Source: Marinobacter adhaerens HP15 (GTDB taxonomy: Bacteria > Pseudomonadota > Gammaproteobacteria > Pseudomonadales > Oleiphilaceae). From it: a DNA stretch of 64,000 bases. The position numbers and the translations under genes are program-made. This document shows, one piece after another, positions 1-35,350 of the stretch. Below the pieces are notes generated by a model. The model did not search any database. It was not told where the DNA came from and saw only the letters and a program-made list of their open reading frames with translations. The stretch spans positions 2,852,001 to 2,916,000 of the forward strand of contig NC_017506.1 in the NCBI RefSeq assembly GCF_000166295.1, written 5' to 3'. Position 1 is the stretch's first letter; each line of letters opens with the position of its first letter.

Positions 1-90
1 AAGCACGGCGAGCACACCGAACACCTCGGTTTCATCCTGGCAGAAATGCAGTTCCTGCAGAGGGCCTATCCCGATGCCACAACATGGTGA
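1..90 (+). CDS. paaC: PaaC, C-terminal end (partial)
   Basis: The first 90 bases read in frame as the last 29 residues of a protein that enters from the left and stops with TGA at 88-90. The tail contains HTEHLGFILAEMQFLQRAYP, which I recognise as the C-terminus of PaaC, the non-catalytic structural subunit that pairs with PaaA in the ring-1,2-phenylacetyl-CoA epoxidase. The stop overlaps the start of paaD, as expected inside a paa operon. Only the end is visible, so the call rests on this tail plus the following genes. Confidence 0.85.
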   Translation, partial: KHGEHTEHLGFILAEMQFLQRAYPDATTW

Positions 91-643
91 TTCAGACAGC
101 CGGTCAGCTGTCGACATTCTGATTGCCAGTGATCGGGTGCCGGCCAACGCCCGCCCCGATCTGCTGACAGAGGACGACATCTGGGCACTTCTTGAAGAGG
201 TCAAAGACCCTGAAGTGCCGGCAGTCAGTGTCGTGGAGCTCGGCATTGTCCGGGCAGTTCACTGGGACGGCAAAGAGCTGTCCATTGACGTGACCCCGAC
301 CTACTCCGGGTGCCCGGCCACCGAACTGATTGAGGAGCTGATCGCCGAGGCGCTACGCGCCGCTGGCTTCCGCGATCCGAAAATCAAACAGGTGCTGACC
401 CCTGCCTGGACCACCGACTGGATCACAGACGAAGGCAAAGAAAAGCTTCGGGCGTTCGGTATCGCGCCACCCGAGGGCAGCTCCAGCAAAATGAGCCTGC
501 TCGGAGAACCGGAAGTCATTGCCTGCCCTCATTGCGGCAGCAAAGACACCGAACGGGTCAGCGAGTTCGGATCCACCGCCTGCAAAGCCCTTTATCGTTG
601 CAAGGAATGCCTCGAGCCCTTCGACTATTTCAAATGCATCTAG
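74..643 (+). CDS. paaD: PaaD, phenylacetyl-CoA epoxidase maturation protein
   Basis: A 189-residue protein that begins inside the last codons of paaC, so the two are translationally coupled. Residues 30-125 form a DUF59/MIP18-type domain typical of iron-sulfur or metal cluster assembly proteins, with the TYSGCPATE motif. The C-terminus carries a CPHCGS knuckle, then CKALYRCKECLEPFDYFKCI, the cysteine-rich tail of PaaD. PaaD is needed for an active epoxidase, probably in maturing the PaaE cluster or the diiron centre. Length and order (paaC-D-E) match the family. Confidence 0.95.
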   Translation: MPQHGDSDSRSAVDILIASDRVPANARPDLLTEDDIWALLEEVKDPEVPAVSVVELGIVRAVHWDGKELSIDVTPTYSGCPATELIEELIAEALRAAGFRDPKIKQVLTPAWTTDWITDEGKEKLRAFGIAPPEGSSSKMSLLGEPEVIACPHCGSKDTERVSEFGSTACKALYRCKECLEPFDYFKCI

Positions 644-656
644 AGCCGATACGATC

Positions 657-1736
657 ATGAACAAATTTTACTCACTGACCCTCAAAGAGGTCAGACCTGA
701 AACAAGAAACGCCGTATCACTTGCTTTTGACGTGCCTGAAGATCTGGCAGACAAGTTTCACTACCAGCAGGGCCAGCACCTGATCGTGCGCACCAAGCTG
801 GATGGCGAGGAAGTTCGCCGCTCCTATTCGATTTGCCGCAGTGTCAACGACCAGGAGCTTCGCATCGCCGTCAAACAGGTTCCTGGCGGTCGCTTCTCCA
901 CCTTTGCCAACGAGCAACTCAAGCCTGGCCAGACTCTGGAAGTCATGCCGCCGCAGGGCCATTTCTCGGTCGATCTGGACCCCGAGCGTGAAGGCAACTA
1001 CCTGGCGGTAGCCGCCGGCAGTGGTATTACTCCGATCCTCTCGATCGTGAAGACCACCCTGGAAACCGAGCCCAAGAGCGAGGTCACCCTGTTCTACGGC
1101 AACAAGGCCACCAGCAGCACCATGTTCCGTGACGAGCTGCAGGACCTGAAAAACGAGTACATGTCCCGCCTTAACCTGGTGTACATCTTCACCCGTGAAG
1201 AACAGGACATCGACCTTTACAACGGTCGTATCGACCACGAGAAGTGCGACAAGCTGTTCGATCACTGGATCAATGCCAAGGAGCTCACGGCGGCCTTTAT
1301 CTGCGGCCCGCAGATGATGACCGAGACCGTGCGCGACTCGCTGCTGAACCACGGCATGGAAAAGAGCAGGATCCACTTCGAACTGTTTACCCCGGCTGGT
1401 GGTGTTCCCCAGGCCCGGAAAGACCGGGATCCGGCACACGTCGATCCCCAGTCAATCAGTGAAGTAACGGTGATCGCTGATGGCCGCTCGCTGACTTTCC
1501 CGCTGGTGCGCGACACCAAGAGCATTCTGGATGCCGGCAATGAAGAAGGCGCGGACCTGCCCTATTCCTGCAAGGCTGGCGTCTGCTCCACATGCCGAGC
1601 CAAGGTCGTGGAGGGCGAGGTAGAGATGGATCAGAACTTTGCTCTGGAAGACTACGAGGTGGAAGCCGGTTACGTGCTTTCCTGCCAGTGCTACCCGATC
1701 AGCGACAAGGTGGTTCTGGACTACGACGAAATGTAG
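657..1736 (+). CDS. paaE: PaaE, phenylacetyl-CoA epoxidase reductase subunit
   Basis: Reductase that passes electrons from NAD(P)H via FAD and a 2Fe-2S cluster to the PaaA diiron site. I choose ATG 657 (359 aa), 13 bases after the paaD stop; the frame is open upstream to 519, but that extension has no family resemblance and lies inside paaD. Domains: FAD-binding (RRSYSICRS near 58-66), NAD-binding (AAGSGITPI near 116-124, CGPQMM near 217), then a C-terminal plant-type ferredoxin with CKAGVCSTCRAKV and a later VLSCQC, giving the four cluster cysteines. Cytosolic; acts with PaaABCD. Confidence 0.96.
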   Translation: MNKFYSLTLKEVRPETRNAVSLAFDVPEDLADKFHYQQGQHLIVRTKLDGEEVRRSYSICRSVNDQELRIAVKQVPGGRFSTFANEQLKPGQTLEVMPPQGHFSVDLDPEREGNYLAVAAGSGITPILSIVKTTLETEPKSEVTLFYGNKATSSTMFRDELQDLKNEYMSRLNLVYIFTREEQDIDLYNGRIDHEKCDKLFDHWINAKELTAAFICGPQMMTETVRDSLLNHGMEKSRIHFELFTPAGGVPQARKDRDPAHVDPQSISEVTVIADGRSLTFPLVRDTKSILDAGNEEGADLPYSCKAGVCSTCRAKVVEGEVEMDQNFALEDYEVEAGYVLSCQCYPISDKVVLDYDEM

Positions 1737-1795: not shown

Positions 1796-1823
1796 CGCGT
1801 TTCAGAAACGAATGGAGTTTCCC

Positions 1824-3869
1824 ATGTCAGTCCTGAAAAGTTTCATTGCCGGCCAGTGGGTCGGCGAAAAGCCCGCCAAGGCTCTGCCAAGCGCCGTTAA
1901 CGGCGAGATCGTCGCCCACACCCACGACGACACCCTCGATTTCAAGAACGCTGTTGAGTATGGCCGCAAGGTTGGCGGCAAAAACCTCATGGCGATGGAT
2001 TTCCAGGAGCGCGCCCTGGCCCTGAAGGCCATGGCCCTGTACCTCCAGGAGCACAAAAAAGAACTCTACGCCCTGTCGATGCATACCGGTTCCACCAAGG
2101 GCGATAACGGCATCGATATCGACGGTGGTTTCGGCACGCTGTTCTCCTACGCCAGCATGGGCCGCCGCGAACTTCCCTCGGGCAACGTGGTTCACGAAGG
2201 CCCGGTGACTCCGCTGGGCAAGAACAACCACTTTGCAGGCACCCATATCCTGGTTCCCCGCGGCGGCGTTGCGGTTCACATTGACGCCTACAACTTCCCG
2301 GTGTGGGGCATGCTCGAAAAGTTTGCACCCACCTTTCTGGCAGGCATGCCGTCCATCGTGAAGCCGGCCACCTCAACCTGCTACGTGACCGAACTCGCCG
2401 TCCGCCTGATGCAGGAATCCGGCGCGCTTCCGGAAGGCAGCCTGCAGTTGATCATTGGCAGCACCGGCGACCTGTTTGACCATCTGGAAGAGCAGGATGT
2501 GGTGACCTTTACAGGCTCGGCCGCAACGGCACGAAAGCTCAGGAACCACCCGAACATCATCAATCGTTCGATTCCGTTCAACGCCGAGGCCGATTCACTG
2601 AACAGTGCCATTCTGGCGCCGGACGTCACCCCGGAGCACGAAGAATTCGACGTCTTCGTGAAGGAAATCCGCCGCGAGATGACCGCCAAGGCCGGTCAGA
2701 AATGTACCGCCATTCGTCGTATCTTCGTACCGAAAGACCAGGTGAACGCGGTCTGCGACAAGCTGAAAGAGCAGCTCTCCAAGATCACCGTGGGTGACCC
2801 CTCTGTCGAGGGCGTTCGCATGGGTGCACTGGCCTCCATCGACCAGCTGGAAGATGTGAAAGCCAACATCCAGGAATTGCTCAAGACCAGTGAGCTGGTT
2901 GTGGGTGGCGAAGGCAACTTCAAGGCTACCGGCGATGGCACCGAGAAGGGCGCGTTCATCGAACCGCACCTGCTGCTCTGCCGGAACCCGGAGAATGGCT
3001 GCGGCGCCCACGATATTGAGGCTTTTGGCCCGGTTGCTACCGTAATCCCTTACGAGACCATCGATGATGCGGTTGAGTTGTGCTCCAGAGGTCGCGGTTC
3101 CCTGGTTACCACACTGACCACCCGTGATCCCGCCATTGCCGGCAGGATCGCCCCGCTGCTGGCCGCGTTCCATGGCCGCCTGCACCTGCTGGATGCCGAA
3201 GCCGCAAAGGAATCCACAGGCCACGGTTCGCCCCTGCCCATGCTGAAGCATGGCGGCCCCGGTCGTGCCGGTGGTGGTGAGGAACTGGGCGGTATCCGTG
3301 CGGTTCACCACTACCTGCAGCGCACCGCAATCCAGGGCTCACCCAGCATGCTGGCTGCGGTTACCCGCGAGTATGTACGCGGTGCCGATCTGATCGAAAC
3401 CGACGTGCACCCGTTCCGTCGCCACTTCGAAGACCTGCAGATCAACGAATCGCTGCTGACTCACCGACGCACCGTTACCGAAGCCGACATCGTCAACTTC
3501 GGCTGCCTGTCCGGTGATCACTTCTACATGCACTTTGATGAAATCGCAGCACGGGACTCCCAGTTCGGCAAGCGTATTGCCCACGGTTATTTCGTGCTTT
3601 CCGCTGCTGCCGGCCTGTTTGTCTATCCGGGCGAGGGCCCCGTGCTGGCTAACTATGGTCTGGACACACTGCGCTTCATTGAACCGGTTGCCCCGGGAGA
3701 CACCATCCGGGCACGACTGACCTGCAAGCGCAAGATTGATCAGGGTCGGACATCTCCGGACGGACATCCTCAGGGTGTGGTGGTCTGGGACGTCCAGGTT
3801 CACAACCAGAACGACGAAATGGTTGCGAGCTACGACATCCTGACACTGGTTGCCAAGAAGCCCGAGTAA
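1824..3869 (+). CDS. paaZ: PaaZ, bifunctional oxepin-CoA hydrolase / aldehyde dehydrogenase
   Basis: Opens the oxepin-CoA ring and oxidises the resulting semialdehyde to 3-oxo-5,6-dehydrosuberyl-CoA. I start at ATG 1824 (681 aa) because GGAG at 1815 fits it; an ATG at 1812 is in frame but poorly placed. The aldehyde dehydrogenase part covers about 1-520, with the catalytic cysteine in AGQKCTAIRR (about 294) and VTFTGSAAT. The MaoC-like hotdog hydratase covers about 530-681 with GDHFYMHFDE and AHGYFVLS, containing the expected Asp/His pair. Both halves look intact, and length matches E. coli PaaZ. Confidence 0.96.
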   Translation: MSVLKSFIAGQWVGEKPAKALPSAVNGEIVAHTHDDTLDFKNAVEYGRKVGGKNLMAMDFQERALALKAMALYLQEHKKELYALSMHTGSTKGDNGIDIDGGFGTLFSYASMGRRELPSGNVVHEGPVTPLGKNNHFAGTHILVPRGGVAVHIDAYNFPVWGMLEKFAPTFLAGMPSIVKPATSTCYVTELAVRLMQESGALPEGSLQLIIGSTGDLFDHLEEQDVVTFTGSAATARKLRNHPNIINRSIPFNAEADSLNSAILAPDVTPEHEEFDVFVKEIRREMTAKAGQKCTAIRRIFVPKDQVNAVCDKLKEQLSKITVGDPSVEGVRMGALASIDQLEDVKANIQELLKTSELVVGGEGNFKATGDGTEKGAFIEPHLLLCRNPENGCGAHDIEAFGPVATVIPYETIDDAVELCSRGRGSLVTTLTTRDPAIAGRIAPLLAAFHGRLHLLDAEAAKESTGHGSPLPMLKHGGPGRAGGGEELGGIRAVHHYLQRTAIQGSPSMLAAVTREYVRGADLIETDVHPFRRHFEDLQINESLLTHRRTVTEADIVNFGCLSGDHFYMHFDEIAARDSQFGKRIAHGYFVLSAAAGLFVYPGEGPVLANYGLDTLRFIEPVAPGDTIRARLTCKRKIDQGRTSPDGHPQGVVVWDVQVHNQNDEMVASYDILTLVAKKPE

Positions 3870-3925: not shown

Positions 3926-3967
3926 AATAAAAGGGGGACAGGTCGCAAGACCTGTCCCCCTTTTATT
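3926..3967. terminator. Perfect 19-bp palindromic bidirectional terminator
   Basis: Arms 3926-3944 and 3949-3967 are exact reverse complements around the tetraloop GCAA. Each arm has a GC-rich base-paired core flanked by A on one side and T on the other, so both strands end in TTTTATT. It sits between convergent paaZ and the liv operon and can stop transcription from both. The GGGGGACAGG core resembles a class of dispersed repeats in Proteobacteria, so it may also be a repeat copy. Confidence 0.9.
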
Positions 3968-3989: not shown

Positions 3990-5354
3990 TTACATGCCCA
4001 GATAGGCTTCCCGCACCTTCTCATTGCTGAGCAGCTCACGGCCGGTCCCTTCGATCACTACCTTGCCGGTTTCCAGCACGTAGCCGCGATCTGCCAGAGC
4101 CAGCGCCTGGGAGGCATTCTGCTCTACCAGGAAGATGGTAATACCCTCTTCCTTGAGTTCCTTGACGATGTTGAAGATCTCCTCAATGATCAACGGCGCC
4201 AGACCCATGCTGGGCTCATCCAGCAGCAGCAGTCTTGGCTTGGCCATCAGGGCACGGCCCATAGCAAGCATCTGTTGCTGGCCACCGGAGAGCTCGCCTG
4301 CCAGGTTATGGCGCTTCTGTCGCAGAATCGGAAACTTGGTGTACATCCGTTCCAGATCGTCCATTACCTCGGGGGTTTTGCCACGGGTATAGGCGCCCAG
4401 AAGCAGGTTGTCATGAACGCTCAAGTCCTTGAACACCTGCCGGCCTTCAGGCACCTGGACGATGCCATCAGCTACCCTCTGATCGGCAGTGATCTTCGAG
4501 AGATCCTTGCCTTCAAAGGTGATGGCACCCCGGTCTGTGGGCTGAAGACCCGAGATAGTCATCAACAGTGTGGATTTGCCAGCACCATTGGCGCCTACCA
4601 GTGACACGATCTCACCACTGTTGATGTGGATGTCCACATCATGCAGCACTTCAATCTGGCCGTAGGACGTTACCAGTCCCTTGATGGACAGCATCTCTTC
4701 TTTGGCATGAGGCGCAGTCACCCGGTCTGCGTGCTTCAGGCCGAGACCACCGAATTTCTCGGGGGTATAACTGACAATCTGGTGCCGCAATTCCCGGAAT
4801 TCCTCCCGGACGCGCTCACCGAACAGAGGATCATTTTCCACGTCCCGCGCTTCAATGATCTGCTGCCAGTCTTCCTCGGTCAGGAGTTTACGGGCCCGTG
4901 GAATAACCACGCCCTCTTCCTTGCGAATGTGTTTGCGCAAGGCTTCCGTGAAACGGGCCAGAGCATGGCTGAACTCTTCGCGACCTTCCGGCCAGCCTTT
5001 TTCACACTCCGCCAACAACTGGCGCAACTCCACCAGCTTTTCATGACCGATGACATAGCCCTTCGCCAGCTTCTCCAGCAGAGGCGCTGTCTCGGGGGAC
5101 TTCTCACTGAGCCGTTTGTAGAGCTCAATGTCAGTGGGCGTGCTATGGACCCGCTGGGAGAAGTGCTGAATGTAATCAAAAATGGTCTTCAGCAGCCGCT
5201 CATCCGGGCGCTGATCGTTAAGGTTCATATCACTCAGCAACTGGTCCAGCAGATCCAGAATCCGCCACAGCGCCTGGTGTTCATGAACAATAATCCGTAC
5301 GGCCTGCTCACTGCGTGACTGGGCAGGCGCCATTTCAGTATTTTGCTCGCTCAT
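3990..5354 (-). CDS. Hemerythrin-like domain fused to LivF-type ABC ATPase
   Basis: One 454-residue open frame joins two domains. Residues about 15-160 form a hemerythrin/HHE-type four-helix bundle with candidate ligands H24 or H26, H64 or H70, H104, and the H142-x3-E146 pair; the second motif lacks the usual glutamate (HSTPTD). After a linker, residues 221-454 are a complete LivF: Walker A GANGAGKST (254-262), signature LSGGQ (355-359), Walker B LLLLDEP (375-381). LivF proteins are normally about 235 aa. The start has GGAG upstream; an internal ATG at M221 could give free LivF but has only an abutting GAAGAG. It lies 17 bases after livG. The N-terminal role is unknown; O2, redox or NO sensing is inference. 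Confidence 0.88.
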   Translation of the reverse strand: MSEQNTEMAPAQSRSEQAVRIIVHEHQALWRILDLLDQLLSDMNLNDQRPDERLLKTIFDYIQHFSQRVHSTPTDIELYKRLSEKSPETAPLLEKLAKGYVIGHEKLVELRQLLAECEKGWPEGREEFSHALARFTEALRKHIRKEEGVVIPRARKLLTEEDWQQIIEARDVENDPLFGERVREEFRELRHQIVSYTPEKFGGLGLKHADRVTAPHAKEEMLSIKGLVTSYGQIEVLHDVDIHINSGEIVSLVGANGAGKSTLLMTISGLQPTDRGAITFEGKDLSKITADQRVADGIVQVPEGRQVFKDLSVHDNLLLGAYTRGKTPEVMDDLERMYTKFPILRQKRHNLAGELSGGQQQMLAMGRALMAKPRLLLLDEPSMGLAPLIIEEIFNIVKELKEEGITIFLVEQNASQALALADRGYVLETGKVVIEGTGRELLSNEKVREAYLGM

Positions 5355-5371
5355 GTGAAATGTCTCCTTGC

Positions 5372-6130
5372 TCAGCCACCCAGATAGGCGGCGATAACAT
5401 CCGGGTTCTGGCGAATTTCCTCGGGGGTCCCTTCCGCCAGAACACGGCCATAGTTAAGCACCAGCAACCGATCGGATATCCCCATCACCAGTTTCATATC
5501 GTGCTCAACCAGCATTACCGTGGTGCCCTGATCCGCAATTTTCCGGATCAGATCCTCCAGGGCAGCGGTTTCAACCGCGTTCAAACCGGCGGCGGGCTCG
5601 TCCAGGAGGATTACCTTTGGTTCAGCGGCCAATGCCCGGGCAATCTCCAGGCGCTTCAGCGCGCCATAGGACATCGCCGATGCTTCGGCATCCAGGTAGT
5701 CACCGCATCCCACGTACTCCATCAGCTCGGCGGCGCGCTTGCGGGCCGCGGCCTCGTTGCGGCGCAAGGAAGGCAAACGGAACAGGGTCGTAAACAGGCT
5801 GCTTTTGAGCTGCAGATGCCGGCCCAGCATCACGTTTTCGATGGCGGTCATGTTCATGCAGATCTGCATCTGCTGGAACGTGCGGCACATGCCCCGCTCT
5901 GCCAGTTCATTGGGCTCCAGCTTGGCGGTGCTCTCACCATTCAGCAGGATCTCGCCTTTGGTCGGCGTATAGAGCCCTGTGATCAGGTTAAACAGCGTTG
6001 TCTTGCCGGCACCATTGGGGCCGATAACAGAATAGACCTGTCCGGCTTCAACCGAAAAGCTGACGCCTTCCACCGCATGGACACCACCAAAGGCTTTATC
6101 CAGCCCCTTTACTTCGACCAGTGCTGTCAT
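5372..6130 (-). CDS. livG: LivG-type ABC transporter ATPase
   Basis: 252-residue ATPase of the hydrophobic amino acid uptake (HAAT) ABC family. Walker A GPNGAGKTT (about 37-45), signature region MSYGALKRLEIARAL, Walker B VILLDEPAAGLN, switch histidine in LVEHDM. The signature LSYG type instead of LSGGQ is normal for LivG. It overlaps livM by four bases (ATGA), so the two are coupled. It should pair with the downstream LivF-type ATPase under LivH and LivM. The substrate is probably an aromatic or other carboxylic acid given the paa context; that is inference. Confidence 0.93.
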   Translation of the reverse strand: MTALVEVKGLDKAFGGVHAVEGVSFSVEAGQVYSVIGPNGAGKTTLFNLITGLYTPTKGEILLNGESTAKLEPNELAERGMCRTFQQMQICMNMTAIENVMLGRHLQLKSSLFTTLFRLPSLRRNEAAARKRAAELMEYVGCGDYLDAEASAMSYGALKRLEIARALAAEPKVILLDEPAAGLNAVETAALEDLIRKIADQGTTVMLVEHDMKLVMGISDRLLVLNYGRVLAEGTPEEIRQNPDVIAAYLGG

Positions 6131-7134
6131 GCCTCACCTCCCGCTTTCTTGCGCATTTTCTTGGAAACAAACGCGGTCAGTGTGGGCAGCAGCCCTTTTG
6201 GCATGAAAATCATGGTGAGCATCAGGATCAGGCCGAACATGACATGTTCCAGCTCCTGGAAATCTGCCAGAACCTGGGGCAAAAGCTTCAGCACCACGGC
6301 GCCAAGAATGACACCGAAGGTCGAGCCCATACCACCCAGAACAACCATGGTGATGAACAGGATGGAGAATTCGAAGCTTGCTACCGCAGGCGTAATGAAG
6401 CCCTGGAAGTGGGCATAAAGACTGCCCATCAGGCTGGCGTAGATCGCCGAGATCACGAACACCAGGCTTTTGTATTTCGCGGTGTTCACACCGACAACGC
6501 TGGCAGCCACTTCCGAGCCGTGAACCGAACGCAGCGCCCGGCCAATCGGCGATTCAATGAGGTTCAGAGCAAACCACACCGCTACCAGAAGCACCACGCT
6601 GGCGAAGATATACCAGGCCTGGAAGCCTTCGATCGTGATACCGAACAGCGAATAGCGACCAAACGCGCTCAGCTCCCAGCCAAATATTTCGAAAGCCGGC
6701 ACCGGCATACCGTCTGGCCCGCCGGTCAGTGCACGCTCGTTGTTCAGGATGATGGCAATAATAAAACCAACGGCAAGCGTCGCCATGGAAAGGTAGTGGC
6801 CTTTCAGACGCAGAATCGGACGGCCGACAATCCAGGCAATCGCGCCCACAACGATGGCTCCAACCACCAGAGCAGGTACCGATGACCAGCCATAAGTACC
6901 GGTTGCGATGCCGGTAAAATAAGCGCCGAGGCCAAAGAAGCCGGCATGTCCCAGGCTGATCTGGCCGGCAAAACCTACCAGAAGGTTCAGGCCAACAACC
7001 GTAGCGGCAATGATCGCCATCTGGGTAACCAGTTCGTAGTGAAACGGGTTGCCCAGAAACGCGGGCAGAATGACAAGAATGAGGGCGAGGATCACCAGTC
7101 CCCGCAGGCGCGACTGCATAAACGTGTTCAACAT
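6127..7134 (-). CDS. livM: LivM-type ABC transporter permease
   Basis: 335-residue inner membrane permease with about nine hydrophobic segments and the family's GHAGFFGLGAY and GRPILRLKGHYLSMATLA motifs near 60-130. A cytoplasmic basic tail (SKKMRKKAGGE) ends it. The start codon overlaps the livH stop by one base, and the end overlaps the livG start, so livH-M-G form a coupled unit. Forms the translocation pore with LivH. Confidence 0.93.
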   Translation of the reverse strand: MLNTFMQSRLRGLVILALILVILPAFLGNPFHYELVTQMAIIAATVVGLNLLVGFAGQISLGHAGFFGLGAYFTGIATGTYGWSSVPALVVGAIVVGAIAWIVGRPILRLKGHYLSMATLAVGFIIAIILNNERALTGGPDGMPVPAFEIFGWELSAFGRYSLFGITIEGFQAWYIFASVVLLVAVWFALNLIESPIGRALRSVHGSEVAASVVGVNTAKYKSLVFVISAIYASLMGSLYAHFQGFITPAVASFEFSILFITMVVLGGMGSTFGVILGAVVLKLLPQVLADFQELEHVMFGLILMLTMIFMPKGLLPTLTAFVSKKMRKKAGGEA

Positions 7135-8009
7135 CAGACGCGCTCCACTACCTTGGCACCGAACAATCCGCGGGGCATGAAGAACAGCACCAGCAGGATC
7201 ATGGAGAATGCAACGGCATCCTTGTAGTCCGATGAAATGTAGCCGGCCGCCATGGCTTCAACGATGCCTAGCGAGAGACCACCGACCACCGCGCCAACAC
7301 CGCTACCCAGGCCGCCAATGGCAGCCGCCACAAAGCCTTTCAGCCCCAGAATGATACCGATGTCGTAGGACGTGAACGTGATCGGGGCAACAACAATACC
7401 GGCCACGGAGCCCAGTAATGCCGAAACCATGAATGCCAGCATCAGAACCATCTGAGTCCGGATACCGACAAGACGCGCAGCCTCCTTGTTCATGGATGTC
7501 GCCAGGATAGCCTTGCCAATCAGTGTCTTGGTAAAGAAAAGCACCAGGCCGACCACCAGGATCGCGCCAATACCGAGAACCCAGAGGCTCTGGCTATTCA
7601 ATACCGCTCCGAAAACTTCAATAGGCTGGTCTGTGCTGAAATTCTGCATCACATGGTATTCCTTGCCCCAGACAACCTGGGCAATACCACGGATAAAGAT
7701 CGACGCCCCGATGGTGATAATGATCAGGGTAACAACATCGGCCTGCTTGGCAGGTGCAATCGCGAACCGCTGCAGGGCGACGCCAAGAATACCGGCCAGA
7801 ATGACCGCCAACACGACTGCCAGGATCATGGGCACGCCCATGGCCGTAAGCGAAACCGTAGCCATGCCTCCAATCATCAGAAACTCGCCCTGGGCGAAGT
7901 TGATGACGTGACTGGCGTTGTAGATGAGGGTAAAGCCGAGGGCTATCAGGGCGTAAGTCGCACCGATAGTAATCCCGGTGAACAGGTACTGTAAGAATTC
8001 TGCGAGCAT
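7134..8009 (-). CDS. livH: LivH-type ABC transporter permease
   Basis: 291-residue polytopic permease. The N-terminal GITIGATYALIALGFTLIYN and the following HVINFAQGEFLMIGG are hallmark LivH sequences, and IGGLGSGVGAVVGGLSLGI near 235 is the coupling-region signature. It follows livK after an 82-base spacer holding a strong hairpin, consistent with livK being made in excess. Inner membrane; partner of LivM. Confidence 0.94.
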   Translation of the reverse strand: MLAEFLQYLFTGITIGATYALIALGFTLIYNASHVINFAQGEFLMIGGMATVSLTAMGVPMILAVVLAVILAGILGVALQRFAIAPAKQADVVTLIIITIGASIFIRGIAQVVWGKEYHVMQNFSTDQPIEVFGAVLNSQSLWVLGIGAILVVGLVLFFTKTLIGKAILATSMNKEAARLVGIRTQMVLMLAFMVSALLGSVAGIVVAPITFTSYDIGIILGLKGFVAAAIGGLGSGVGAVVGGLSLGIVEAMAAGYISSDYKDAVAFSMILLVLFFMPRGLFGAKVVERV

Positions 8010-8091: not shown

Positions 8092-9249
8092 TCAGTCGAT
8101 CAGTTTCCATTCGCCATTCTGGACTTCCAGAATGCGGAAGGAGTCTGGATCAAGGCCGTTGTGGTCTTCCGGTGACATGTTGAATACACCGGTTACGCCG
8201 ACATAGCCCTGGATATTCTCCAGTGCGTTACGAACGGCTTCCGGATCGGTCGAGCCGGCTTCTTCCATAGCGCGGACCGCCAGCATCAGGCCATCGTAGG
8301 CGTAGGCACCGAAGGTGGACACCTTGGAATCCCAACGGGCTTCGTATTCAGCCTTGTAGTTCTGAACCACTTCTTTCTGGGGATCGTCGTTCGGCAGGGA
8401 ATCCGGCACCAGCAGCGGAGACGCTGGCAGGCGAAGGCCTTCTGCAGACGAACCGGCGAGCTCGAGGAAGCTGTCGGATGCAACACCGTGGGACTGATAG
8501 AACGGGAGTTCCATGCCCAACTGAGCATAGTTGCGGGTTACGATGGCCGGGCCCTGACCGAAACCGAAGTTCAGCACCGCTTCCACACCACTTGTGTTAC
8601 GGATATTGGTCAGCTGGGCGGTCATGTCTGTATCAGATCCGCTGTAGGTAACATCTGCCACAACTTCCATGCCCATCTGCTCGGCGACTTCCAGAGTCTG
8701 TGTGCGACCGGAGCTTCCGAAACCACCCGTGCCTGAGATCAGGCCGAACTTGGTGATACCGCGGTCTTTCATATCGCTCAGGATACGTTCCGCCGCCATG
8801 CGATCAGTCTGCGGAGTCTTGAACACCCACTTCTTGACCGGGTTGGTAATAACGACCGCACCGGCCAGGGAAATAAACGGCACCTGGGCCTGTTCAATCA
8901 GAGGAACCGCCGCCATGGTGGCGCCGGTGGTACTGCCGCCAACGATGATGTCAACCCGGTCCGAACGGATCAGGCGACTGGCAAAGTTGCGTGCAGAGGA
9001 GGCGTTGCCAACGTCGTCGTAGTGGATCAGCTCCAGCTGACGACCAAGTACACCACCTTCTTCGTTGATTTTTTCGACGTACATCTCGAGCGTTTTCAGC
9101 TCGGGATCGCCGAGAAAGGATGCCGGACCTGTGACAGACAGGAAGGAACCGATCTTGATGGGTTCAGCGGCCTGTGCGCTCATCATCATGAGGCCGGCGG
9201 CTGCGACGGCTGCGCATTTTCCTGCGCGACGAATCACTGTTTTAAACAT
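8092..9249 (-). CDS. livK: LivK-type periplasmic substrate-binding protein
   Basis: 385 residues from ATG 9249, chosen because GGAG lies nine bases upstream and a signal peptide follows at once (basic MFKTVIRRAGK, hydrophobic core, AQA-AE cleavage site). The frame is open up to 9321, but that extension would cover the inverted repeats upstream. The mature part is a two-lobed Peripla_BP_6 receptor: IKIGSFLSVTGPASFLGDPE, YVEKINEEGGVLGRQLEL, and VGGSTTGATMAAVPL. Family ligands include amino acids, aromatic acids and amides. Its position between paa genes and paaX suggests phenylacetate or a related acid. Confidence 0.92.
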   Translation of the reverse strand: MFKTVIRRAGKCAAVAAAGLMMMSAQAAEPIKIGSFLSVTGPASFLGDPELKTLEMYVEKINEEGGVLGRQLELIHYDDVGNASSARNFASRLIRSDRVDIIVGGSTTGATMAAVPLIEQAQVPFISLAGAVVITNPVKKWVFKTPQTDRMAAERILSDMKDRGITKFGLISGTGGFGSSGRTQTLEVAEQMGMEVVADVTYSGSDTDMTAQLTNIRNTSGVEAVLNFGFGQGPAIVTRNYAQLGMELPFYQSHGVASDSFLELAGSSAEGLRLPASPLLVPDSLPNDDPQKEVVQNYKAEYEARWDSKVSTFGAYAYDGLMLAVRAMEEAGSTDPEAVRNALENIQGYVGVTGVFNMSPEDHNGLDPDSFRILEVQNGEWKLID

Positions 9250-9303
9250 TGTTTTTGTTCTCCCGTTTTTTGCAGGGGCTTGAGTTTTTGTTTCTTCGCT
9301 CCC

Positions 9304-9355
9304 GGTATGATTCGATACCATTGACGAATATCAAATGAAGTTATTGTATCATAAC
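9304..9355. promoter_or_regulatory. Two inverted repeats, candidate PaaX operators
   Basis: GGTAT-N6-ATACC (9304-9319) and GTTAT-N6-ATAAC (9340-9355) lie 36 bases apart, centre to centre, upstream of livK and divergent paaX. The first contains TATGATTCG, the core of the E. coli PaaX consensus WWTRTGATTCGYGWT (10 of 15 positions as I align it). The second carries TATGATAC on the minus strand. A weaker TTGATTC match lies at 9494-9508, just before paaX. Binding is inferred. Confidence 0.55.
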
Positions 9356-9522
9356 GCTCGTGTCAACTGATTTCCGGGAGTGCCAACGCGGCTCTTTCAG
9401 TAAAGCCGACACTGGCAGAACACGCCAGCACCGCTGATCGAAAGACAAACCTTTACCTGACACGTAAGAACCGCATAATACGTGGAACATGTTTCATTGA
9501 TTCTTATTTGCGAACTCAGGCC

Positions 9523-10491
9523 ATGACTGCAAAAAGCCAGCTAGAACTGCTCGTCAAAAACTTCCAGAAGAAGCGACCCCTCCGGGCCGGCTCTCTCATC
9601 ATCACCATCTACGGTGATGCCATCGTTCCCCGCGGCGGCAATGTATGGCTGGGCAGCCTGATGAAGCTGGTTGAACCCATGGGTATCAGCCAGCGACTGG
9701 TCCGCACCTCGGTGTATCGACTGGTCCAGGAGTCCTGGCTGCAGACCGAGAAGGTGGGCCGTTGCAGTTATTACAGCCTGACCGGCCCTGGACTGCGTCG
9801 GTTCGAGCAGGCGTTTCAGCACGTTTACAATCTGGATACCGAAGAATGGAGCGGCAGCTGGTGCCTGGTTTACCTGAACCAACTGTCACCGGAGCTCAGA
9901 CAGAAAGTCCGTGAAGAGTTGAAATGGCTCAGTTTTGGCAGCATGGCTCCCGGGTTGATGGAACATCCGCGGTTTACGCGTAGCGAACTGATCCCGATGC
10001 TTCAGGAGTGGGGCGCTCTGGACGACACCATCGTGATGCAGACCATGCCCATGGAGCAGAAGAGTCCAAGAGCCCTCAGGCTGCAAGTTCGCGAAAGCTG
10101 GAACCTCGAGGAGCTGGGCGGTCGCTACAGGCGCTTCCTGAGCCAGTTCCGCCCCTTGTGGCGAGAACTGCAGACAGAAGATACCCTCAGCCCCGAGGAG
10201 TGCCTGATTCTCCGGATCCTGCTGATCCACGAATACCGAAAGATCCTTTTGAGGGATCCACTGCTGCCGGATGAACTGTTACCCGGTGACTGGGAAGGCC
10301 GCAGCGCCAAACAGCTTTGCCGCAACCTTTATCGGCAGATCTATGCGCGCGCCGAGCAGTGGCTGGACGCGAACCTCGAGAACGCTTCTGGTCCGCTTCC
10401 GGGGCCCGGTGAGAAGTTCTACAAACGCTTTGGCGGCCTGAGAGATACCGCTGCCCAGACTGACCTGAGGACGGAACCGGAGGTGCTGTAA
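9523..10491 (+). CDS. paaX: PaaX family transcriptional repressor
   Basis: 322 residues from ATG 9523 with a short CAGG ahead; a TTG at 9508 is in frame but less likely. The N-terminal winged helix (about 15-95) has the PaaX signature GSLIITIYGDAIVPRGGNVW, LGSLMKLVEPMGISQRLVRT and GRCSYYSLT; the remainder is the PaaX C-terminal ligand and dimer domains. PaaX represses paa promoters and is released by phenylacetyl-CoA. Here it is divergent from the liv operon and separated from paaZ by it, so it may control both transport and its own expression. Confidence 0.93.
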   Translation: MTAKSQLELLVKNFQKKRPLRAGSLIITIYGDAIVPRGGNVWLGSLMKLVEPMGISQRLVRTSVYRLVQESWLQTEKVGRCSYYSLTGPGLRRFEQAFQHVYNLDTEEWSGSWCLVYLNQLSPELRQKVREELKWLSFGSMAPGLMEHPRFTRSELIPMLQEWGALDDTIVMQTMPMEQKSPRALRLQVRESWNLEELGGRYRRFLSQFRPLWRELQTEDTLSPEECLILRILLIHEYRKILLRDPLLPDELLPGDWEGRSAKQLCRNLYRQIYARAEQWLDANLENASGPLPGPGEKFYKRFGGLRDTAAQTDLRTEPEVL

Positions 10492-10498
10492 CCGACGG

Positions 10499-11008
10499 TC
10501 AGTCAGGTGATTTGCCGTCAGCGGAAGAGAGCTGCTTTCTGGTTGCCAGGCGCCCCTCCCGACGGATCTGTGCGTTTTTGAATCGGCGCCGCTGCTCCTC
10601 CGTCTCCGGAACCACATCCGGTACCTCCACAGGGCTGTCATGCTCGTCCAGCGCAACAAAGGTGAAGAAGGCCGAGAGAATATGCCGGGTATCGCCGGTA
10701 TAGCTGTTCTCCGCCTCTACCCTGGCCCCGATCTCCATGGACGAGCCCCAACTGCGGTTCAGCGACAGGCTGAACAACAGCGTATCATTTCCCTTCGCCG
10801 GCGCCCTGAAATGGATTGAATCCACGGCAGCCGTCACACAGACATGGGCAGAATGTCGTTCTGCCACAACCAACGCTAACCGGTCGCATTTGGCCATGAT
10901 CATCCCGCCGAACACCGTGTCGTGGGAGTTCATGTCGTTCGGAAATACCTTGTAAACGTGCTTCTCAATTGCAGATGCTGAGACGGGCTTTGAAGGCTTG
11001 TCAGCCAT
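10499..11008 (-). CDS. Acyl-CoA thioesterase, hotdog fold (YciA/BACH type)
   Basis: 169 residues. The hotdog core covers about 15-130, with NDMNSHDTVFGGMIMAKCDR (the Asn/Gly-Gly region of acyl-CoA thioesterases) and VDSIHFRAPAKGND. It should hydrolyse acyl-CoAs in the cytosol; chain preference cannot be read. The tail (about 130-169) is charged and probably disordered. The start overlaps the stop of the upstream dehydrogenase by one base (TAATG), so they are coupled, and its end converges on paaX with a seven-base gap. Confidence 0.85.
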   Translation of the reverse strand: MADKPSKPVSASAIEKHVYKVFPNDMNSHDTVFGGMIMAKCDRLALVVAERHSAHVCVTAAVDSIHFRAPAKGNDTLLFSLSLNRSWGSSMEIGARVEAENSYTGDTRHILSAFFTFVALDEHDSPVEVPDVVPETEEQRRRFKNAQIRREGRLATRKQLSSADGKSPD

Positions 11009-11931
11009 TAATGATCCTCTTTTTCCGGTGCCGATGAAGCAATTACCTCTCTGACGACATTCGCACTGTGCAAAAACGCCGCCTGCTCCTTTTCATCCAA
11101 CCGCGGATGCAGGACTCGCTCAATGCCATTACGGCCAACAACCGCAGGCAGGCTCAGGCAAACATCATCCACGCCGAGAAAGCCGTCAACGCGAAGACTG
11201 ACCGGTAGCGTGTGCTTCGAATCATTTGCAATGCATTCAATGATCTCTGCCGCCGCCAGGGCAACGGCATAATTGGTACAGCCCTTGTGCTTCAGAACCT
11301 CAAAACCCGCACGGGACGCTCTCTCGAACAAAGCATACCGGCCGGGCGTAGCATCGAGTGTTTCGCCACCAACATCCGCGCAACTCATTGCGGGAAACTG
11401 GCTGTCTCCGTGCTCGCCCAGAATGTAGGCGCGAATATCCTCACTGTGGATGCGAAGCTCTTCTGCCAGTAATTGGCGAAACCTGCTCGAATCCACCAAT
11501 GTGCCGGTTCCGATAACCTGATTCGGACGAAAACCGCCAAACTCCAGAGCATAATGCACCAGAACGTCCACCGGATTCGACACCATCACGATCTTGCAGT
11601 CGGGCGACATCCTTGCCAACTCTGGCATCAGCTCCTTCATCAACTGGACATTCCCCTGCGCCAGTTCCAGACGACTGCTCATGTTTTTCGGTGTAGGAAC
11701 GGATGCGCAGACGGCAATCACATCCGAGCCGGCGGTATCGGAAATCGTACCGGCAGTAACCTGTGCAGGCGTATTTACAAACAACTGACCGTGCCGCAGA
11801 TCAAGCACATCACCCAGCACGGATTGTTTGCTTCGGCCAACCAGAACCAGTTCATCGATGATGTTTTTCAACGTCAGCACGAAAGCCAGCGTTGACCCGA
11901 CATTCCCCGTGCCAATGACCGAAACTTTCAT
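11008..11931 (-). CDS. L-lactate/malate-type dehydrogenase
   Basis: 307 residues with the NAD motif GTGNVGS at 7-13, the catalytic histidine region GEHGDSQFPAM near 174, and the substrate arginine region TGTLVDSSRFR. The mobile loop that sets specificity reads CASVPTPKNMSSRLEL: the place that is Gln in lactate and Arg in malate dehydrogenases seems to be Thr or Pro, so the substrate is open, perhaps another 2-hydroxy acid. Cytosolic NAD-dependent oxidoreductase. Paired with a thioesterase by an overlapping stop/start. Confidence 0.85.
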   Translation of the reverse strand: MKVSVIGTGNVGSTLAFVLTLKNIIDELVLVGRSKQSVLGDVLDLRHGQLFVNTPAQVTAGTISDTAGSDVIAVCASVPTPKNMSSRLELAQGNVQLMKELMPELARMSPDCKIVMVSNPVDVLVHYALEFGGFRPNQVIGTGTLVDSSRFRQLLAEELRIHSEDIRAYILGEHGDSQFPAMSCADVGGETLDATPGRYALFERASRAGFEVLKHKGCTNYAVALAAAEIIECIANDSKHTLPVSLRVDGFLGVDDVCLSLPAVVGRNGIERVLHPRLDEKEQAAFLHSANVVREVIASSAPEKEDH

Positions 11932-13226: not shown

Positions 13227-14410
13227 TCAAGGGGAAAGAGCAGGTTCGGCCTCTCTTTCCTTCGCCCGTCTTGCCAGGTGAAGCATCAAAACCCCCAACG
13301 CCATCACCACCAGGGTCAGCCAGAGACCGTTGGTATAGTTACCTTCGACATCGGCCAGATAGCCGACCACGGCGGGTGCCATCATCTGTGCAATGCCATA
13401 GCTGAAAGTCAGCCTGCTCATGGGCCGCGAGGGATTCTCCGGGAAAGCCCGCCCCACCATCGCCAGCATCATGCTGACGATACCGATGAAGCTGACACCA
13501 TAGATCACCGAGCTGACCATCACACTGGCCAGGCTGGTATTTACAATCAGCATCAGGATGCTGACGGAGTTCAGAGTGTAGGCCAGGTATAGCGCCAGCC
13601 ACTGCCCCCACCGACGGGAGAACACATCCCACAACCAGCAGGCCGGGGTAGCGGAAAGGCCAGCAATCAGCCAGACCAGCCAGCCCTGCCCCTGAAGCTC
13701 GGGCATGGATTCAGCAATAGCCACCAGAAAGGTAGCCGTGACCACATAGCCAACGCCGGCGCAGAAGTACGCCAGTTGCAGGATACGTATGAATCGACTG
13801 CGCTCGTCGCCACCAGCGGTTGTCCCCGTTTTGGCAAGGCACAGGCGCGGTAATCGGGCATCCAGCGCCAGGCGGGGATCAGCAACGCCAGGGCCACCAG
13901 ACCATAGATCACCCATTGCTGGTCCCAGGTAAACGGATCCTTGATCAGTTCCGCGGTAACAGCGGTCAGAACAATCCCGAGCCCGATGCCGGAAAAGAAA
14001 ACGCCAAGCTCGGACTTCTGGTTGTTCTTGATCAACCAGCTCATCAGCAGACCCGCGCCAAGCAACATGCCCGCTGAGGTGCTCAGCCCTGAGATGAAAC
14101 GCAGGATGAACCAGAGCCAAACGTTGGTGGTGTACCCCATGAGAACCGTCGAAACCACAGCGACCACCAGCCCGAGCTGGTAAAGCCTGACCTTGAGACC
14201 TAGATCGCTGATGCGGGTAATCAGCACTGCACCAGTCAGATAGCCGGCGTAGTTAACCGTCGCCAGCATGCCGACAACGGATTTGCTCAGCCCCAGTGCA
14301 GCCACCATCTCCGGGATCATGGGCGTGTAGGAAAACCGGGCAATCCCCACCATGACCACAACAGCAATCACGCTGGCGACCAGCACCTTTATCGTTTCTA
14401 TTGGCTTCAC
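13227..14410 (-). pseudogene. YbfB/YjiJ-type MFS transporter, frameshifted
   Basis: The start at 14410 opens a frame with the family's GIARFSYTPMIPEM and ATVNYAGYLTGAVL motifs and good membrane helices up to PAWRWMP; after that it becomes nonsense and stops at 13667. A second frame continues sensibly from TAGGDERSRFIRILQLAYF to the stop at 13227. Joining them at the A run (T run 13829-13832 on the plus strand, CCAAAACGGGG on the coding strand) by adding one base restores a 12-helix carrier of about 394 residues. A one-base loss in a homopolymer, as in the neighbouring broken gene. Confidence 0.8.
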
Positions 14411-33196: not shown

Positions 33197-35350
33197 ATGA
33201 CAATGCCAATACCGGAAGTGCAGTCCCCCAGCCGAGCCCTCAAACCCGGAGTCGGCCTGCTTAGAACGCCGGATCTGAGTGTTGGGTCTGTGGAGGACAA
33301 ACGCGCCGAAATTGCTTCCTACTTCACCAACACCTTTGATACCTACACGCGCCTCTTCGACTGCCTCGCCGGTGATTCGGGCTATTTCCAGAAATCGATT
33401 CCTCTGAGACACCCCCTCATTTTTTACCTCGGCCACACCGCAACTTTTTTCGTCAATAAACTGGTGCTGGCCAAACTCCTTCCAGAGCGCATCGACCCTC
33501 ACATGGAGTCGATTTTCGCGGTGGGCGTTGATGAGATGAGCTGGGACGATCTGGACGAAGATCATTACGACTGGCCCACCGTTGCCGAGGTGCTGGATTA
33601 CCGCGCTAAAGTTCGCGCAACTGTTCTGGACCTGATTGAAACACTCCCGCTCAGCCTGCCGATCAACTGGGAGAATCCCTGGTGGCCGATCGTTATGGGT
33701 GTTGAGCACGAACGCATCCACCTTGAGACCTCGTCCGTGCTGATCCGCCAGCACGACCTCTCAAAGGTGCGGCCGCAGCCAGAATGGGCACCGATTCGCG
33801 AGACCGGCGAAGCACCGGAAAACGAACTGTTCACCGTACCGGCTGGCACAGTTTCCATCGGCAAATCCTACGACGACGCCTTCTACGGCTGGGACAATGA
33901 GTACGGCGAACACGAGGCCCAGGTTGATGAGTTCAGGGCCAGTCAGTATCTCGTCAGCAACCAGGAATTCCTGGAGTTTGTTGAAGCCGGTGGTTACCAG
34001 GAGGATCGATTCTGGAGTGAGGAGGGTTGTGCCTGGCGGCAATTTGCCATGGCGAAGCATCCGACTTTCTGGCGCTGGCAGAACGGTTGGCATCTGCGCC
34101 TTATGACTGAAGAGGTCGAGATGCCCTGGGACTGGCCCGTCGAGGTGAACTACCACGAGGCCAAAGCCTTTTGTGAGTGGAAACGGGAGCAAACCGGCCA
34201 GCCAATCCGCCTGCCAACCGAGGACGAGTGGTACCGCCTGTGCGCCGAGGCCGGCATCGAAGAAGTGGGCCATGATCCCGCAAAGGCCAACCTGCATCTC
34301 GACCATGGAGCATCTTCTTGCCCGGTTACCCGGTTCCGGCATGGTCAGTGGTTCGACGTTGTTGGCAACGTCTGGCAATGGACGGAAACACCGACCTATC
34401 CGTTCGATAATTTCAAGGTTCATCCGCTGTACGACGATTTCACAACGCCGACGTTCGACGGGCAACACAACCTGATCAAGGGCGGTTCCTGGATTTCCTG
34501 CGGCAACGAAGCCCGAATGTCGGCTCGTTATGCGTTCCGCAGGCACTTCTTCCAGCATGCCGGCTTCCGCTACATCGCCTCCGAAAACGAGGCCGTGCAA
34601 CCGAACGCCTACTATGAAAGCGACCGGTTGCTGACTGAATACGCGGAATTCCACTTCGGTGACACCTGGTTTGGTGTTGAGAACTTCCCCAAAGCCCTGG
34701 CGGATCTTGCCCTGGATGCGATGACGGGCAAGCCAACCGGAAAAGCCCTGGATCTGGGCTGTGCCTGCGGTCGGTCCAGTTTTGAATTGGCAAGGCGCTT
34801 TGACGAGGTGGAAGGTGTCGATTTCTCGGCCAACTTTATCAGGCTGGGCGTGGAGATGGCCGAGCAGGGCTCCATTCGCTATGCGCTGGCAGAGGAAGGT
34901 GAACTGGTCAGCTATCACACCCGGACACTCAAAGAGCTGGGTCTTGAGGAATGCTCAGATCGGGTAAGCTTCTACCAGGGCGATGCCTGTAACCTGAAAC
35001 CGCAGTACTCGGGCTACGACCTTGTTCTGGCGGCCAACCTCATTGATCGCCTTTACCGCCCAAGGCGCTTCCTGGACAGCATTCACGAGCGCATTAACGA
35101 CGGTGGCCTGTTGGTTATTGCCTCTCCCTACACCTGGCTGGAAGAACATACGCCCAAAGAAGAGTGGATTGGCGGTTTCAAGAAGGATGGTGAGAATCAC
35201 ACCACGCTGGATGGCCTGAAAGAACACCTCTCACAGCATTTCCGGTTAGTCAGTGAGCCGAAAAAGGTGCCTTTCGTTATCCGCGAAACCCAACACAAGT
35301 TCCAGCATACCCTGTCTGAAGTGACTATCTGGGAGCGCTTGCCGCGCTGA
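33197..35350 (+). CDS. ovoA: OvoA, 5-histidylcysteine sulfoxide synthase / mercaptohistidine N-methyltransferase
   Basis: 717 residues. Three domains: DinB-like (about 35-200), FGE-sulfatase-like (about 210-465), class I methyltransferase (about 500-717). The iron site comes from H171-x3-H175-x-E177 (VEHERIHLE) plus an earlier His such as H80. The SAM motif is ALDLGCACGRSS near 517-528. OvoA joins cysteine to histidine with O2 and, through its C-terminal domain, methylates to ovothiol A; the lyase OvoB is not adjacent. A second ATG lies two codons later. It overlaps the convergent downstream gene by 26 bases. Confidence 0.95.
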   Translation: MTMPIPEVQSPSRALKPGVGLLRTPDLSVGSVEDKRAEIASYFTNTFDTYTRLFDCLAGDSGYFQKSIPLRHPLIFYLGHTATFFVNKLVLAKLLPERIDPHMESIFAVGVDEMSWDDLDEDHYDWPTVAEVLDYRAKVRATVLDLIETLPLSLPINWENPWWPIVMGVEHERIHLETSSVLIRQHDLSKVRPQPEWAPIRETGEAPENELFTVPAGTVSIGKSYDDAFYGWDNEYGEHEAQVDEFRASQYLVSNQEFLEFVEAGGYQEDRFWSEEGCAWRQFAMAKHPTFWRWQNGWHLRLMTEEVEMPWDWPVEVNYHEAKAFCEWKREQTGQPIRLPTEDEWYRLCAEAGIEEVGHDPAKANLHLDHGASSCPVTRFRHGQWFDVVGNVWQWTETPTYPFDNFKVHPLYDDFTTPTFDGQHNLIKGGSWISCGNEARMSARYAFRRHFFQHAGFRYIASENEAVQPNAYYESDRLLTEYAEFHFGDTWFGVENFPKALADLALDAMTGKPTGKALDLGCACGRSSFELARRFDEVEGVDFSANFIRLGVEMAEQGSIRYALAEEGELVSYHTRTLKELGLEECSDRVSFYQGDACNLKPQYSGYDLVLAANLIDRLYRPRRFLDSIHERINDGGLLVIASPYTWLEEHTPKEEWIGGFKKDGENHTTLDGLKEHLSQHFRLVSEPKKVPFVIRETQHKFQHTLSEVTIWERLPR

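Follow-up and report, generated by a model that had tools for sequence, protein, structure and literature searches.

A hemerythrin-type HHE domain fused in frame to a LivF-type ABC ATPase in the phenylacetate gene cluster of Marinobacter adhaerens HP15

In a stretch of 64,000 nucleotides from Marinobacter adhaerens HP15 (contig NC_017506.1, positions 2,852,001 to 2,916,000; hereafter the window), an HHE domain is fused to a complete LivF in one frame. The minus strand from 5354 to 3990 is a single uninterrupted frame of 454 codons with an ATG start. The gene closes a livKHMGF operon within a paa cluster; the operon is divergent from paaX, and the fused gene is convergent with paaZ. The reading that we prefer, at about even odds, makes the protein the LivF of a paa-regulon HAAT importer of the aryl-acid type; its N-terminal HHE module would serve regulation or docking, and a diiron site in its ancestors would have changed in the window's branch. 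The parts of the gene are as follows.

3990..5354, minus strand: HHE-LivF fused open reading frame, 454 aa (ORF list, Pfam, NCBIfam, protein search)
4893..5303, minus strand: HHE/hemerythrin domain, residues 18-154 (Pfam and alignment)
4737..4892, minus strand: conserved extension, residues 155-206, with a DPLFG motif and GGLG at its end (alignment, dN/dS)
4698..4736, minus strand: variable linker, residues 207-219 (alignment, dN/dS)
3993..4697, minus strand: LivF ATPase domain, residues 220-454 (Pfam, NCBIfam, PDB match)
5363..5369, minus strand: Shine-Dalgarno-like AAGGAGA, 8 nt ahead of the ATG of the fused gene (by eye)
3929..3967, no strand assigned: inverted repeat between the convergent fused gene and paaZ, a probable two-way terminator (by eye)

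Pfam places both domains: Hemerythrin (PF01814) matches residues 18-154 with 39 bits against a cut-off of 25.3, and ABC_tran matches residues 237-382 with 109 bits, over its cut-off. The best NCBIfam model is a LivF equivalog, whose whole length aligns to residues 219-453 at 280 bits against a 441-bit cut-off, and the best PDB match of this part is 1ji0, an ABC transporter ATPase. From its similarity and its operon, we take the fused ATPase to be of LivF type and not an equivalog of E. coli LivF. Walker A (GANGAGKST), the signature (LSGGQQQ) and Walker B (LLLLDEP) are conserved in alignment A1 and make a complete nucleotide-binding domain. The fused protein is the only protein of its own genome with a PF01814 match over the cut-off; 82 other ABC matches in that genome start at residue 188 at least, and none covers the N-terminal module, whose extension (residues 155-206) is common to many stand-alone HHE relatives. 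When residues 1-225 were used as query, 96 proteins were found at E ≤ 1e-3, of which 93 have both domains; PF01814 is absent from two, and the remaining one joins LivG to LivF. The first-pass annotation of the window had described a single open frame with a good ribosome-binding site and a complete LivF behind an HHE-type bundle, and both descriptions stand. That the fusion is real and unusual is likewise borne out, by these database matches and by the selection on the HHE part described below.

The start of the fused gene lies 17 nt past the stop codon of livG, and its neighbours in the window are the following.

5372..6130, minus strand: livG, partner ATPase (conserved beside the fused gene; name by similarity)
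6127..7134, minus strand: livM permease (name by eye)
7134..8009, minus strand: livH permease (LivH model at 146 bits, under cut-off)
8092..9321, minus strand: livK, periplasmic substrate-binding protein (PDB relatives)
9508..10491, plus strand: paaX repressor gene, divergent from livK (TIGR02277 over cut-off)
1812..3869, plus strand: paaZ, convergent with the fused gene (TIGR02278 over cut-off)
657..1736, plus strand: paaE (TIGR02160 over cut-off)
74..643, plus strand: paaD (TIGR02159 over cut-off)

Directly upstream of the window sit paaG-H-I-J-K-A-B and the beginning of paaC. PaaX, PaaA, PaaD, PaaE, PaaZ, PaaK, PaaH, PaaI and PaaB score over curated cut-offs, PaaJ matches a 3-oxoadipyl-CoA thiolase model, and PaaG and PaaC were named by eye. 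LivK matched no NCBIfam model at E 1e-30; its closest PDB relatives include 3sg0, 4dqd and 3tx6/4f8j/4fb4, which we take to be binders of aromatic acids. The substrate of the importer would most likely be phenylacetate or a related aryl acid, with phenylacetate as the putative ligand of LivK, and the operon is named here as a candidate phenylacetate importer for paa clusters. The accessible text of a 2009 study of paa clusters names paaL and paaM as the transport genes (PMC2653477), and in that of a systems study on Aromatoleum most aromatic substrates are inferred to enter through ABC transporters (PMC9765128). Elsewhere in the window, two overlapping frames on the minus strand (13667-14410 and 13227-14120, together 13227-14410) resemble, by eye, the halves of one MFS transporter and suggest a frameshift, and a 717-aa ORF on the plus strand (33197-35350) was recognised by eye as OvoA-like (ovothiol biosynthesis).

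The association of the fusion with phenylacetate genes is close within the genus. Among 37 genomes, our own included, the fused gene was found in 24 and PaaX in the same 24, the PaaX match running across stop codons in three of them; the other 13 have neither and are also without PaaA. At the 24 loci, PaaX and livKHMG are present in every case and a PaaZ match falls inside the fetched stretch in 23. Being related, these genomes do not count as independent trials. In the species-genome collection, a scan found 69 loci, 66 of which have an ORF with both parts (the exceptions are L116-L118), and PaaX lies inside the fetched stretch at 54 of the 66. The remaining 12 are L073, L094 and Mangrovitalea L097 (contig ends), Nitrincola L104, where paaGHIJK lies alongside the fused gene, and eight loci of Ectothiorhodospiraceae. 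The latter keep the fusion without nearby paa genes, seven of the eight within a liv operon, and PaaA was found in none of the eight Ectothiorhodospiraceae genomes searched.

Fused genes are also present in further lineages, so that a family confined to Marinobacter is ruled out. A second query, P0104, found 612 proteins at E ≤ 1e-10; among the 120 matches listed, 119 have both domains, most are of 438 aa, and the named organisms are mainly Dechloromonas and Azonexus. At the deeper loci, the fused gene is adjoined by paaX and paaABCDE (L150, L178, L180), by paaX (L152), by paaGHIJK (L220) or by paaK (L223), has paaGHIJK nearby (L216, L217, L219) or paaABCDE further along (L218), or has liv genes only (L181, L182, L221, L222 and, at a contig end, L179); the stretches of L151 and L215 are too short for their context to be judged. 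The first-pass annotation had asked if the architecture is confined to paa-linked liv operons. The tie to paa genes holds in most lineages, in 24 of the 37 genus genomes and at the deep loci with paa genes listed above, but the confinement does not, because Ectothiorhodospiraceae keep the fusion without paa genes or PaaA. Conversely, no liv genes were found within 10 kb of two paaX clusters from outside the genus (L242, L243), which therefore offer no unfused control and indicate that paa clusters do not need the HHE-LivF importer.

Three atypical genes were met in these surveys. P0097, a 512-aa protein of a Marinobacter metagenome-assembled genome (MAG), has LivG joined to LivF with almost all of the HHE part missing, and is either a natural deletion of the HHE part or an assembly artefact. 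P0098, encoded on a contig of 206,708 bp, has 234 aa with an HHE part of the window type and no ABC domain; it is perhaps a broken fused gene. In Thiorhodospira sibirica (L108:10001-11341), the fused gene has no livKHMG within 10 kb and its ORF begins late in the HHE part; it is perhaps decaying or has moved.

To compare the metal ligands, we aligned 229 fused rows (226 distinct) in four groups: A, Marinobacter, Marinospirillum and kin, with 95 rows; E, Ectothiorhodospiraceae, with 11; B, the P0104 type, with 117; and C, other deep lineages, with 6. The counts leave out one of P0001-P0094, which has no DPLFG, and three of the 120 group B entries, which have no LSGGQQQ. The window protein keeps H26, H70, H142 and E146, has T74 and Y100 at the two other ligand columns, and so departs from the full H-HxxxE-H-HxxxE set. 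The helix-1 His is found in every row save one truncated row, and the helix-4 His and Glu in all 229. The helix-2 His is kept in 94 rows of group A (Gln in one) and in all 123 of B and C, and is Gln in all 11 of E. The helix-2 Glu column holds 122 Glu and 1 Asp in B and C; 62 Thr, 15 Glu, 5 Ser, 4 Asp, 3 Gln, 3 Lys, 2 Ala and 1 Arg in A; and 8 Asn, 2 Asp and 1 Arg in E. At position 75, adjacent to the lost Glu, every one of the 229 rows has an acidic residue. All 123 rows of B and C have His in the helix-3 column, and all 106 rows of A and E have Tyr (Tyr100 of the window protein).

Of 90 non-fused HHE relatives, 84 have His in the helix-3 column and 83 have the helix-2 Glu; nine likely fragments and P0097 were excluded from both groups of this alignment, and the fragments P0095 and P0096 were kept in the fused group. 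It is this alignment that rules out H104 as the helix-3 ligand and places Tyr100 in the ligand column. In the HHE tree, A and E are joined at 100/99 and adjoin B at 94/86. Since full sets occur outside A and E, the ligand loss is derived on the A and E branch. The first-pass annotation had called the ligands only partly conserved, with H142-x3-E146 intact and the second motif, H70-x3-T74, without its Glu; this is correct as far as it goes, and the third change, at Tyr100, had been missed.

The structure models point in the same direction. AlphaFold2 gave the window protein a mean pLDDT of 80.6 and a pTM of 0.58, with predicted helices at 14-45, 52-69, 77-85, 87-119 and 125-157 that form a four-helix bundle whose helix 2 is interrupted (52-69 plus 77-85), residues 70-74 having a pLDDT under 50. 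In the model of P0201, a full-ligand protein from Dechloromonas (mean 80.2), an unbroken helix at 36-69 spans the HHxKED motif, its block 51-60 averaging just 66. Pro73, found in 91 of 95 rows of A and 11 of 11 of E, with Lys in 123 of 123 of B and C, fits the predicted break in helix 2. PDB fold searches with the two whole models returned ABC proteins only among the best 50 listed, and because ABC proteins occupy these lists no HHE fold match was seen; a PDB profile search with the HHE module found YtfE and NMB1532 as its only relatives (5 distinct sequences, E 7e-7 to 4e-4). Because the helix-3 His is fixed as Tyr, the helix-2 Glu is mostly lost and helix 2 is broken in the model, a canonical diiron centre, and with it the canonical diiron or O2 sensor that had been considered for this protein, is unlikely in the window's branch. 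Diiron chemistry or O2 sensing is plausible in those family members whose sequences have the full ligand set, and an O2, iron or redox switch in them is plausible by analogy with the hemerythrin-domain sensors treated in the accessible part of a review (PMC9388753).

Coupling of an HHE domain to a HAAT ATPase seems to have arisen more than once. Genome G1139 encodes a protein of 464 aa in the reverse order, LivF-HHE (L230:9741-11132, minus strand; ABC 25-167, HHE 274-410), in its own livKHMG operon. Its parts group with unfused LivF (99/94, the ABC row being long-branched) and with stand-alone HHE (100/99), so that it is a separate fusion event. In the same genome, a stand-alone HHE gene lies 13 nt downstream of livF on one strand (L234:9855-10439 and 10453-11154, minus strand). 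Judged from these sequences, the reverse-order fusion and the adjacent pair support a functional coupling of HHE and HAAT ATPase. Two further arrangements were observed: in a Thiotrichaceae MAG (L117:198-1664), a stand-alone HHE gene sits between a UrtE-like HAAT ATPase and urease-like genes (names by eye), and in a box (benzoyl-CoA epoxidase) cluster (L232:3357-10410), a stand-alone HHE gene comes last, behind BoxC and BoxB (TIGRFAM), an ORF that resembles BoxA by eye, and a thiolase. As for the N-terminal fusion itself, the outgroup branches of a first LivF tree (37 rows) were very long, and its fused rows needed two changes, which spoke against one fused group. After rebuilding with 34 rows (G_LivG_win, U_L241_own, U_L240_own and U_L234_adj removed, L235 added), the fused rows are all on one side of a branch with support 85/93, below our mark. 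In the HHE tree, the N-fused rows need two changes, and one change in 20% of the bootstrap trees. By these trees, the N-terminal fusion may have had one origin or several.

By the Nei-Gojobori method, with the window compared to the 66 loci and the median taken over unsaturated pairs only, dN/dS is 0.073 for the HHE domain (42 pairs), 0.060 for the extension (29), 0.18 for the linker (30) and 0.057 for the ABC part (52), values that are rough, as synonymous sites are near saturation in many pairs. Both the HHE and the ABC parts are under purifying selection, and the HHE part is plainly maintained. The earlier suggestion that the domain may be degenerate is right in part: its partial degeneracy is larger than was claimed, yet with a dN/dS of about 0.07 the domain is not decaying. 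The same selection speaks against the notion that LivF is translated from the internal M221 behind a meaningless HHE leader, or that the fusion is a sequencing artefact, which we regard as very improbable. M221 is present in the window, and its position is Met in 80 of 95 rows of group A; another residue takes its place in 15 of 95 rows of A, 7 of 11 of E, 103 of 117 of B and 6 of 6 of C, and no well-spaced Shine-Dalgarno sequence was seen ahead of it by eye in the window sequence. The same frame, moreover, was found again in separate assemblies, at 66 of 69 loci. Separate production of LivF from an internal ATG, which the first-pass annotation had set out as its alternative, is disfavoured accordingly. 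A possibility we take more seriously, and still doubt, is that in the window's branch the HHE domain has lost diiron binding and, as a structural part without metal, now only helps to dimerise LivF/LivG, to stabilise the transporter or to bind another paa protein. The invariant Tyr and the mostly missing helix-2 Glu of groups A and E, the helix 2 that is broken in the window model and unbroken in P0201, the additional loss of the helix-2 His in Ectothiorhodospiraceae and the purifying selection that is still strong would all agree with such a part. A purely structural role, however, has no need of H26, H142 and E146, which are kept wherever the residue is present, or of H70, kept in 94 of 95 rows of A; this objection is not decisive, as the same fold may carry ligands left by descent.

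It is rather unlikely that the HHE part acts instead as a store, buffer or scavenger of O2, iron or reactive species close to the membrane, the fusion fixing its location or dosage without control of the ATPase. In the accessible part of a study of Rhodocyclales benzoate clusters, a role as O2 store or scavenger, or a protective one, is proposed for the stand-alone HHE (COG3945) of these clusters (PMC6449761), and the HHE gene behind BoxC, BoxB and the thiolase at L232 would be in keeping with it. Two separate fusions, in both orders and to the same ATPase type, however, point to the transporter over general scavenging, and the site of the window's branch looks unfit for canonical O2 chemistry. 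We tentatively entertain a more specific idea, to which we give less than even credence: the HHE-LivF proteins may belong to directly gated aromatic-acid ABC transporters, in which a diiron domain in the motor would read O2, iron or redox state and switch the uptake of substrates that are broken down with the help of an O2-activating diiron oxygenase, the site being altered around the Tyr (H26, H70, Y100, H142, E146) in the Marinobacter-Ectothiorhodospiraceae branch. The distribution of PaaA bears on the O2 link. All 10 group A genomes searched outside Marinobacter have PaaA and, as noted, none of the 8 Ectothiorhodospiraceae do. Of a further 17 N-fused genomes, six gave a PaaA match (G258, G446, G830, G832, G1047, G1015) and eleven did not; these eleven comprise nine from groups B and C and two of the Halorhodospira type, of which G840 duplicates the record L111. 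In all, 9 of the 15 deeper N-fused genomes tested are thus without it. As Ectothiorhodospiraceae and nine deeper genomes have no PaaA, a strict O2 link fails; that ligand loss follows PaaA loss is ruled out too, since nine full-ligand genomes are also without PaaA. By gene content, the fusion tracks phenylacetate metabolism better than any single oxygenase, and we offer the oxygen idea, like the response to iron, redox state or NO that the first-pass annotation had also raised, as a hypothesis.

In connection with these genomes, we would like to point out the protein P0313 (L216:5026-6159), which is AurF-like and ferritin-like (Pfam AurF at E 5.7e-4, under cut-off), has DEQNH and DEGRH motifs and is paired with its own Fer2/FAD reductase (L216:6267-7313). 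Genes of this type are also found at L217, L218, L247, L249 and L260-L264, and in 9 of 10 loci (the exception is L260) they adjoin paaN or sit between paaK and paaA. They occur in 11 of 35 genomes, six being N-fused genomes without PaaA; these are six of the nine PaaA-less B and C genomes, the other three (G141, G264, G966) having neither. From its motifs and neighbours, P0313 is a candidate for a second phenylacetyl-CoA oxygenase.

We return to the reading of a regulated or docked LivF in an aryl-acid importer. The HHE module would be a built-in cytoplasmic regulatory or docking domain of LivF, regulation being suggested by analogy. In the full-ligand relatives, its metal or redox state may modulate ATP hydrolysis or assembly, and this modulation could match uptake to a pathway that requires iron and O2. 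In the window's branch, with an invariant Tyr for the helix-3 His and the helix-2 Glu mostly lost, the module would act through an altered site or metal-free; that the other ligands are retained beside the invariant Tyr points to such an altered site or to a specific structural role. If the HHE domain controls the ATPase, a nutrient ABC importer would contain its own post-translational switch, responsive to O2, iron or redox state, and uptake would be linked to O2-dependent catabolism without a separate sensor. A natural series is at hand in the full-ligand Dechloromonas proteins, the altered Marinobacter and further altered Ectothiorhodospiraceae proteins, the reverse-order fusion and the unfused pair. 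The family also suggests a HAAT transporter as the partner for the HHE proteins of benzoate clusters, whose role is unclear.

A literature search, made mostly in journals open without subscription, turned up no account of an ABC ATPase that carries a hemerythrin-type domain. A 2016 survey of hemerythrin-domain proteins counts 56 architectures, and in its main text the terms 'ABC' and 'ATP-binding' are absent (PMC4919030). The accessible part of the review cited above names the P1B-5 type as the transport-ATPase case among characterised hemerythrin-domain sensors (PMC9388753). Like the window protein, the P1B-5-type ATPases have a hemerythrin-type domain with non-canonical ligands on a transport ATPase; as described there, they are P-type metal pumps with a C-terminal domain and another ligand motif, whereas the window encodes an ABC importer. 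Compared with the LivF of HAAT (branched-chain amino acid type) importers, to which the ABC part aligns end to end and whose livKHMGF operon is alike, the window protein adds an N-terminal HHE module of about 206 residues. The COG3945 HHE of Rhodocyclales, whose gene accompanies those of a putative ABC transporter for benzoate and of an aryl-CoA pathway, is a separate protein, likened to that of the window by its description in the accessible text (PMC6449761); the HHE of the L232 box cluster is a 31% homologue. YtfE and NMB1532 match in three ligand motifs of the aligned stretch and differ in having no ABC domain, in their weak similarity and in two aligned ligands that are missing in the window protein. 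Finally, HHE-UspA fusions (e.g. P0109 and P0112) have an HHE part of the same subfamily as the window protein, but joined to a universal stress domain; in P0109 and P0112 it lies at the C-terminal end.
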